Below are positions 1,840-41,266 of a stretch of DNA of 64,000 bases, piece after piece (within the stretch, counting starts at the first letter, position 1; each line of letters starts with the position of its first letter). Made by a program: the position numbers and the translations under genes. The stretch comes from Haloferax larsenii JCM 13917 (lineage in GTDB: Archaea; Halobacteriota; Halobacteria; Halobacteriales; Haloferacaceae): positions 384,813 to 448,812 of the forward strand of contig NZ_AOLI01000019.1 in NCBI RefSeq assembly GCF_000336955.1, read 5' to 3'. The notes beneath the pieces were generated by a model. It was not told where the DNA came from. It was given only the letters and a program-made list of their open reading frames with translations, and did no database searches.

Positions 1840-1864
1840 TCGACACGAGGCTTCGCCTCGGTGT
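1840..1864. repeat. perfect hairpin ACACGAGGC-ttc-GCCTCGGTGT
   Basis: A near-perfect inverted repeat with a three-base loop lies between the pseudogene remnant and the tRNA-Val-derived palindrome. Hairpins of this style (arms joined by TTC or TTT) recur in the non-coding patches of this window, for example at 1980-2000 and 63505-63554. It may be a terminator or debris of a palindromic element. Confidence 0.45.
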
Positions 1865-1889
1865 TCGTCGGGTTCTCGAAGAAGCGAAA

Positions 1890-2002
1890 TGGGTTGGGGC
1901 AGATTTGAACTTCGTGAGACGGCTGTCTCACGTACTCACGCTCGCTTTGCTCGCGTGAACCTCACTCGCACCGCTTCGCGGTGCTCGCTGGTTCAAATCT
2001 TT
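1890..2002 (-). repeat. palindromic element with arms copied from the tRNA-Val 3' end
   Basis: In tRNA direction (minus strand) the element starts with an inverted, slightly decayed tRNA 3' end (2002-1984, containing GATTTGAACC). It continues through a core AGCGAGC...GCGAGTGAGGTTCAC with several small hairpins. It ends with a copy of the real tRNA-Val T-loop, T-stem and acceptor strand plus discriminator (1910-1890). That copy matches the 3' end of the tRNA-Val genes at 2063 and 2182. Bases flanking the copy (tcgaag...gaaat) also resemble those after the functional tRNA. The same layout occurs after tRNA-Gly near 41.1 kb. Confidence 0.7.
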
Positions 2003-2062
2003 TGCAACCATACACTTCGACATACGCTCCTCGCTTCGCTCGTCGGTAGTGTCGAAGAGAAA

Positions 2063-2137
2063 TGGGTTGGGGCAGATTTGAACTGCCGGCCTCCTCCATG
2101 TCAAGGAGGTGTCATAACCAGACTAGACCACCAACCC
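2063..2137 (-). tRNA. tRNA-Val (GAC)
   Basis: A 75-nt cloverleaf is visible: a seven-pair acceptor GGGTTGG/CCAACCC, anticodon loop TTGACAT with anticodon GAC, T-arm GGCAG-TTCAAAT-CTGCC, and discriminator A. CCA is not encoded. It is the downstream copy of a tandem pair and is followed at its 3' side by the tRNA-derived palindrome. Confidence 0.95.
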
Positions 2138-2181: not shown

Positions 2182-2256
2182 TGGGTTGGGGCAGATTTGA
2201 ACTGCCGGCCTCCTCCATGTCAAGGAGGTGTCATAACCAGACTAGACCACCAACCC
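2182..2256 (-). tRNA. tRNA-Val (GAC), first of tandem pair
   Basis: The sequence and fold are identical to the copy at 2063-2137, 44 bases downstream, so the pair is probably transcribed together from the promoter near 2311. The anticodon GAC reads GUC, the main valine codon in such GC-rich genomes. Confidence 0.95.
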
Positions 2257-40833: not shown

Positions 40834-40904
40834 GCGCTGGTAGTGTAGTGGTATCACGTGACCTTGCCATGGTCACAACCTGGGTTCAAATCCCAGCCAG
40901 CGCA
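40834..40904 (+). tRNA. tRNA-Gly (GCC), first copy
   Basis: A 71-nt cloverleaf: acceptor GCGCTGG/CCAGCGC, anticodon loop TTGCCAT with anticodon GCC, T-arm CTGGG-TTCAAAT-CCCAG, and discriminator A. It differs from the second copy only in paired acceptor positions. Confidence 0.96.
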
Positions 40905-40916
40905 CTTCCACCACAT

Positions 40917-40987
40917 GCGTCGGTAGTGTAGTGGTATCACGTGACCTTGCCATGGTCACAACCTGGGTTCAAATCCCAGCCGACGCA
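40917..40987 (+). tRNA. tRNA-Gly (GCC), second copy
   Basis: Same body as the first copy, but acceptor GCGTCGG/CCGACGC. The change at two positions is compensated on the other strand, so both fold. The 3' end of this copy is the one duplicated in the two downstream palindromes. Confidence 0.96.
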
Positions 40988-41055
40988 CTTCTTCGGAACA
41001 CAAACCTCCGAGAGACCTCCGTGTCTCTTGGTTCTGTGAGGATAAATGTGAGACA

Positions 41056-41125
41056 CTGGGATTCTGAACTAGCGAGCGAACGCTAGTGAGCGAGTGAAGT
41101 TCACAATCCCAGCCGACGCACTTCT
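41056..41125 (+). repeat. tRNA-Gly-end palindromic element, copy 1
   Basis: The left arm CTGGGATTcTGAAC (41056-41069) is the reverse complement of the tRNA-Gly T-loop and T-stem. The core CTAGCGagcgaaCGCTAG then GTGAGCGAGTGAA follows. The right arm GTTCAcaATCCCAG runs on into CCGACGCACTTCT, so bases 41105-41125 repeat the tRNA 3' end and its flank (40972-40992) exactly. The layout equals that at tRNA-Val. Confidence 0.75.
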
Positions 41126-41192
41126 ACAACGAGCCTACCTTCCGAGCGACCGCTGTGCGTGTCGCTCGGACTGTGAGTCGCGAATGCGAGAA

Positions 41193-41266
41193 CTGGGATT
41201 TGAATCAGGGAGCGACGCGAACGAAGTGAGCAGAGCGACTGAGGTTCACAATCCCAGCCGACGAGT
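41193..41266 (+). repeat. tRNA-Gly-end palindromic element, copy 2
   Basis: The left arm CTGGGATTTGAA is the exact reverse complement of the functional T-arm segment. The core GGGAGCGACGCG...GTGAGC...GCGACTGAG ends in GTTCAcaATCCCAGCCGACG (to 41263), where homology to the tRNA 3' end stops. It lies four bases before the end of the DUF3179 gene. Confidence 0.75.

Follow-up and report, generated by a model that had tools for sequence, protein, structure and literature searches.

Tandem repeats that hold part of a tRNA gene lie behind the tRNA at one E. coli locus, tyrT, where each 178-bp repeat carries 19 bp of the tRNA-Tyr end. Polarised insertion at tRNA 3' ends, with a 14-15 bp duplication, is a property of casposons, which are large gene-bearing elements that depend on Cas1. 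In integron attC sites and in the foldback attP of CTX phage, a single-strand foldback makes the recombination site, and integron cassettes enter next to a fixed site and change their order. By insertion site, the described systems closest to the locus studied here are the tRNA-targeted integrative elements with archaeal tyrosine recombinases, for which the T stem-loop is among the known sub-sites (PMC8371274). As short haloarchaeal palindromes, the PATEs and SMRs of Haloquadratum come closest. In the available parts of their description (PMC3119063), PATEs, MITEs and SMRs are short, transposase-free and palindromic, and are lost by repeat-mediated deletion. PATEs have IS605-like ends and no target duplication, MITEs and SMRs have terminal inverted repeats, and in those parts none is described as tRNA-linked or as having arms copied from its target.

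We analysed a window of 64,000 nucleotides (the whole stretch of DNA under study) from Haloferax larsenii JCM 13917. It contains two identical tRNA-Val(GAC) genes on the minus strand. The upstream copy (2182..2256) has no unit of its own behind it. The proximal gene (2063..2137, ARAGORN and Rfam RF00005) ends with its T-loop-to-discriminator segment at 2083-2063, referred to as A0, and is followed on the same strand by a palindromic unit. The unit begins with a hairpin, h (2015..2062), recognized from sequence and fold as a T-rich trailer, TTTCTCTTCGACA.../...TGTCGAAG, whose stem starts adjoining the tRNA. A linker (2001..2014) is a degenerate inverted copy of the acceptor end, in which GGTTG pairs with CAACC. 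Next comes A' (1990..2000), an inverted T-loop/T-stem arm that was identified by repeat finding and is tRNA-specific across loci; it reads AGATTTGAACC on the minus strand and GGTTCAAATCT on the plus strand, with a degenerate acceptor part reaching to about 2009. The core, K (1911..1989), consists of GCGAGC-type hairpins (AGCGAGCACCGCGAAGCGGTGCGAGTGA, CACGCGAGCAAAGCGAGCGTG and GTGAGACAGCCGTCTCAC) and is 87% identical to a segment behind tRNA-Val(CAC) in the same genome. The distal direct copy, A1 (1890..1910, GTTCAAATCTGCCCCAACCCA), is an identical 21-nt copy from G53 to the discriminator. The element belongs with the proximal tRNA end, and its layout is therefore A-h-A'-K-A.

All parts named in the original prediction, an inverted tRNA 3' end, a GCGAGC hairpin core and a direct copy behind tRNA-Val, were therefore present between 2062 and 1890 on the minus strand, and the direct copy matched perfectly over the 20 bases plus discriminator that had been claimed. 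The prediction had also held that the flank of the copied end was duplicated. The flanks beside the two tRNA-Val end copies are indeed alike (tcgaagaagcgaaat / tcgaagagaaat), but this likeness need not reflect co-duplication, because what lies past the distal copy is the beginning of an older unit. A remnant of that unit (1843..1889, minus strand) corresponds, in a 47-nt alignment, to the trailer/hairpin directly behind tRNA-Val in another Haloferax genome, G005. The tRNA-Val end match was equalled by none of the 51 other tRNA downstream regions of the genome, and the 193-nt stretch at this locus had a folding z of -4.7; the copy is not a matter of chance.

A second array in the window follows a tRNA-Gly(GCC) pair on the plus strand (40834..40988, ARAGORN and Rfam). 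Its first unit (40989..41121) consists of h from 40989, A' at 41056-41069, K, and A at 41099-41121, and contains a covariance-model match (G000:C19:425865-425927, G000 being the H. larsenii genome). The second unit (41122..41263), also with h and K, has A' at 41193-41204 and A at 41243-41263 (match G000:C19:426001-426073). The only matches in the window at the Rfam 15 gathering score were the tRNAs and an archaeal ribosomal protein L4 leader (RF03135, 40099-40198, minus strand, 69.8 bits); the units matched no described RNA family.

Across the H. larsenii genome, a copy of the tRNA's own 3' end was scored downstream at 35 of 53 distinct tRNA loci. Most of these copies belong to units of fixed layout, and a few are tandem tRNA genes or fragments of repeats. 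The score was usually unmatched by the downstream region of any other tRNA, and upstream of the tRNAs of this genome no comparable copies were found except neighbouring tRNA genes. A BLAST search of the genome with the Val stretch gave matches behind tRNA-Val(CAC), Ser(CGA), His, Pro(CGG), Lys(TTT) and Pro(TGG). Arrays of two or more units were present at Ser-CGA, Gly-GCC, Ala-GGC, Gly-TCC, Tyr and Phe.

The units were then sought with a pattern made without reference to any tRNA (inverted T-loop, GAGC, T-loop), scanned over 84,980 prokaryote genomes. At least 118 stretches matched, and among the 80 listed all titles were haloarchaeal except one that read only "Euryarchaeota". Among the matches listed, 78 of 85 followed a same-strand tRNA at a distance of less than 400 nt, and matches near a tRNA mostly ran on into the T-stem and acceptor of that very tRNA. 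The exceptions examined had been moved behind tRNA fragments by other insertions, lay in a gapped scaffold, faced the opposite way or followed another unit. A covariance model found matches in 21 of the 25 genomes of the order and in none of 122 other genomes in the phylum; a tRNA lay beside the match in 30 of 30 loci examined, 16 scored automatically as downstream and 14, with opposite-strand matches, judged by eye from coordinates. The recurrence behind any tRNA that had been proposed as a check was thus found in haloarchaeal genomes, behind more than 20 kinds of tRNA and with arms matching each local tRNA. No relative of the units was found in plasmid, phage or viral-contig collections.

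Two covariance-model matches in the H. larsenii genome lie kilobases from a tRNA gene, each following a displaced tRNA 3' fragment; where units were found far from a tRNA gene, in this genome and at the loci L155, L190 and L203, other insertions had separated them from their tRNAs. At C17:17500-20500 of the same genome, a 335-aa tyrosine integrase is encoded beside a displaced tRNA-Thr(GGT) fragment, and the integrase-linked insertion separated a palindromic unit from tRNA-Thr(GGT), about 7.7 kb away. The unit at C17:19131 seemed to follow an SRP RNA; Rfam gave no match, and the sequence is the displaced tRNA-Thr(GGT) fragment. At C19:695700-700700, about 3.5 kb is inserted at tRNA-Glu(TTC) and encodes a 576-aa protein resembling a coiled-coil ATPase; palindromic units with one common core lie on both sides of the insert.

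The units could also be scars of ordinary integrated viruses or plasmids whose attachment sites are tRNA ends. Such elements are indeed found at these tRNAs, where they leave 3' fragments behind, as the tRNA-Thr(GGT) fragment 7.7 kb downstream beside the integrase illustrates. They leave one long fragment plus genes, however, and they displace palindromic units and do not create them; the common h-A'-K layout and its covarying structure (see below) would stay unexplained, so that we regard this origin as highly improbable. Plain duplication of an attachment site by one larger element was ruled out by the recurrence and by the displaced far units. The statement in the original prediction that this is not a simple attachment-site duplication was borne out by the inverted, tRNA-specific arm and by the recurrence behind the many tRNA kinds; neither an ordinary element with its far end elsewhere nor chance matching, the two outcomes named in advance as refuting it, was found.

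The units measure about 80-180 bp, carry no genes and are too short for an integrase gene. In 201 distinct units the direct copy started sharply, identity at position 52 being near control (0.76 vs 0.67), and it faded past the discriminator. Identity at G53-C56 was 96-98%, at bases that are invariant in tRNAs, and the variable R57 was copied as well (0.97 vs 0.66 in the control). The inverted arm A' tracked the local tRNA at R57 and at positions 61-64. An ungapped positional test gave no signal past position 64 for A' as a pure inverted copy of the acceptor stem, and this description was abandoned; the linker complemented the acceptor weakly but significantly (z about 8, 201 units). As the gapped test gave an acceptor signal where the ungapped one did not, A' is best described as a degenerate full inverted copy. 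Only the arms are derived from the tRNA; K and h are common to different tRNAs. An extra C in the T-loop (GTTCACAATC) was seen in many copies behind unrelated tRNAs (L051, L066, L123 and L298), in some cases with a corresponding C in the inverted arm.

Arms of this kind could arise by fold-back DNA synthesis, that is, serial template switching in which the nascent strand folds, copies A' backwards, refolds at K and copies A forwards, with the arrays changing afterwards by repeat recombination and with no mobile element or dedicated enzyme involved. Such synthesis accounts directly for both arms matching the local tRNA and for A' as an imprecise inverted copy from T-loop to discriminator. It does not supply a K and an h that are common to more than 20 tRNA kinds and several families, and it sits poorly with the lack of covariance-model matches in the 122 other genomes of the phylum. 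We consider it an unlikely origin of the units, and return to it below.

The K stem covaries, both sides having changed in 88 cells compared with 27 in shuffles. In loci retrieved by the pattern, conservation of the arms and of GAGC is inflated by ascertainment, which leaves the Haloferax survey unaffected; the tandem GA.GA never varied, even on the side that the search pattern left free (65 of 65 sequences). Correction of the palindrome during fold-back synthesis should erase this GA.GA mismatch, yet it is kept. A kink-turn was considered for the motif and rejected on inspection, the 3-nt bulge being absent. The hairpin h begins adjoining the tRNA and is usually T-rich.

The left edges of the copies were bimodal, at 52/53 and at T60/C61, which are the two ends of the T-loop. 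In class I, which starts at G53, the GA strand of K lay in the tRNA sense (141 GA vs 4 TC); in class II, which starts at T60, K was reversed (3 GA vs 30 TC). The coupling of class and orientation gave a Fisher p of 2.5e-26, a value that overstates the case because orthologous loci of related species are not independent. The split was perfect among Haloferax loci, whose selection did not involve the pattern (32:0 vs 0:21), and in the H. larsenii genome alone (15:0 vs 0:8). In class II, the orientation of h was mixed (8 GA, 10 TC), which speaks against simple inversion of the whole unit, since inversion predicts TC. The two classes are consistent with a single element that joins one or the other end of the T-loop, depending on its orientation. 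In fold-back synthesis they could correspond to the two ends of the T-arm hairpin loop, but the sharp coupling of orientation and junction would be left unaccounted for.

These observations also bear on a role of the units as a selected structured RNA, or as a terminator or decoy downstream of tRNAs. A read-through transcript would fold into h and a T-arm-like hairpin and would aid termination or 3' processing, or bind a tRNA enzyme. The covariation, with GA.GA on the tRNA strand in class I, is what such a role would produce, as is a usually T-rich h that starts adjoining the tRNA. In class II, however, the structured strand is antisense to the tRNA, which is not expected if the units act within the tRNA transcript; many tRNAs have no units, and several units may be stacked in a row, far from the gene. 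Although h, K and A are strongly conserved in Halorubrum and the linker is not, units are lost repeatedly without replacement (see below). We therefore give this role a low probability.

Insertion at a staggered cut, of the type made by Cas1 or a casposase, would treat the 21-bp tRNA 3' end as a target-site duplication and h-A'-K as the inserted unit. Copies of nearly uniform length, about 21 nt up to the discriminator, and insertion adjoining the tRNA are in line with this, and casposons are known to target tRNA 3' ends. An A' that matches each tRNA and the class of T60 starts are left unexplained, and we judge this route quite improbable.

Units were gained, lost and reordered between related genomes. 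Several Haloferax tRNAs had a unit present or absent with exact edges, between the tRNA and its old trailer. Three states were found at Val-GAC, in G001/G003, in G005 and in G000, and the Ala-CGC, Gly-CCC, Lys-CTT, Lys-TTT, Gln and Phe loci also differed in units between Haloferax genomes. Insertion and deletion cannot always be distinguished in these comparisons. At Gly-GCC, the order of the two units in G000 is the reverse of that in the Haloferax genome G001, which requires more than one deletion.

The tRNA-Leu(CAA) locus was searched in 52 Halorubrum genomes, yielding 49 rows in a tree, 23 of them filled and 25 empty or shortened. On this tree, built from one upstream flank and including two long branches and two genomes entered twice, the filled state changed 14 times, near the 16.7 of shuffled labels, and at least 12 of the 14 changes were forced by well-supported branches. 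In the filled loci, h, K and A were 0.97-0.99 identical, nearly as conserved as the tRNA, with the linker at 0.69 and the sequence past the older unit at 0.28-0.42. Spread by homologous exchange between strains may be an alternative source of this pattern. In the shortened state E2, the h of the inner unit is joined to the A' of the outer unit, so this state must be a deletion. Short-repeat deletion, which is documented in Haloquadratum (PMC3119063) and is seen here as state E2, is in line with fold-back synthesis followed by repeat recombination. Some genomes have duplicated 3' regions of this Halorubrum tRNA (L335, L337, L342 and L343), in places with a filled and an empty copy in tandem.

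Our preferred reading, to which we assign a probability of roughly 45%, is that the units form a family of palindromic cassettes without genes that, in Halobacteria, insert downstream of tRNA genes by means of a trans-acting recombinase at the T-loop. A cassette would bring a substitute tRNA 3' end, from G53 or T60 to the discriminator, with a usually T-rich h behind it, so that insertion would rebuild an intact tRNA with its own trailer and push the old 3' end and older cassettes outward. We infer that a cassette may be one turn of a foldback circle, with an A/A' duplex stem made of T-arm and acceptor and with h and K at its ends; through such a foldback, a single strand could present the tRNA end in duplex form. 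A site-specific recombinase encoded by the host or by an element, most likely of the tyrosine class, would join the folded strand to the T-loop, so that either cassette strand could be used and the junction could fall at either end of the loop. Recombination between the A and A' repeats would later remove or rearrange copies. The edges 53|54 and 59|60 enclose six bases, the spacer length of dif sites (PMC8371274), which makes a Xer-like recombinase a candidate. It counts against this reading that the element's left half-site does not resemble the tRNA T-stem, a resemblance that a classical double-strand tyrosine recombinase would call for.

Against the cassette reading we also count that neither a recombinase nor a free or circular form of the cassettes came to light, that some absences, such as state E2, are deletions between repeats, and that conservation of h, K and A but not of the linker at Halorubrum Leu-CAA also fits cis-acting selection. 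The original prediction of a mobile palindrome that takes its arms from the tRNA was right in part: gain, loss and reordering fit mobility, and the tRNA supplies the arms, but the arms only, K and h being common to many tRNAs.

The cassette reading can be set beside the described systems. Like tRNA-integrated elements (PMC8371274), the units use the tRNA 3' end as their site, rebuild the tRNA, leave the displaced end outside and stack in tandem; as with ordinary elements of this type, an intact tRNA lies at one end and a displaced 3' fragment at the other. Unlike them, the units are 80-180 bp without genes, contain an inverted arm and nested hairpins, fall into two junction classes and occupy many tRNAs of one genome; ordinary elements are defined by an identical attachment core and no inverted copy, and the units have a tRNA-specific A'. 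With PATEs, the units share near-terminal palindromes (h and K) and a length too short for a transposase; they differ in that every class I unit is flanked by about 21 nt copied from the tRNA end, PATEs having no target duplication.

Like the tyrT repeats, the haloarchaeal units lie in tandem behind a tRNA and each holds a tRNA 3' end; we know of no inverted arm, core common to different tRNAs or two classes in the tyrT repeats, and no paper naming rtT RNA was found in the open-access literature. Casposons likewise insert in a polarised way at tRNA 3' ends with a duplication, but are not known to have an inverted arm matching the tRNA. The units are also not CRISPR arrays: in place of unrelated spacers they have hairpins that all belong to one family, and direct and inverted repeats take turns.

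In working principle the units may be closest to integron cassettes and CTX attP. New units likewise appear next to a fixed site and change their order, with the differences that they have no gene and that the fixed site is a tRNA gene. The attC core boxes GTTRRRY / RYYYAAC were not found, the unit arms reading GTTCRAATC; the A'/A stem with its mismatched acceptor part and the variable K bear no more than a resemblance to the attC foldback, which has paired arms, an unpaired middle and a variable terminal structure. The CTX-like and attC groups are kept as an analogy only. Tentatively, Halobacteria may possess an integron-like cassette system in which tRNA genes are the fixed sites and folded single-strand dumbbells, with the tRNA 3' end as their stem, enter the T-loop either way by single-strand exchange and stack behind the tRNA; in this specific form we consider the proposal possible but doubtful.

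None of the known kinds compared shows all of its own defining features in the units. No description of such units was found in the open-access literature, so that their standing as a new kind of DNA is provisional.

The units look like undescribed mobile DNA that is gained, lost and reshuffled between species. If this is true, a whole archaeal class carries densely distributed mobile or self-copying DNA whose fit to the host site is exact, since it takes the place of the tRNA end at which it inserts and supplies a trailer, usually T-rich, of its own. That junction and orientation are coupled points to chemistry at both ends of the T-loop, which is directly testable in the genetically tractable Haloferax. 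For annotation, unit copies can be mistaken for tRNA fragments. Even if fold-back synthesis is the cause, the arrays document that process in nature on a large scale. The finding bears on tRNA genes as integration hot spots and on the persistence of palindromes.
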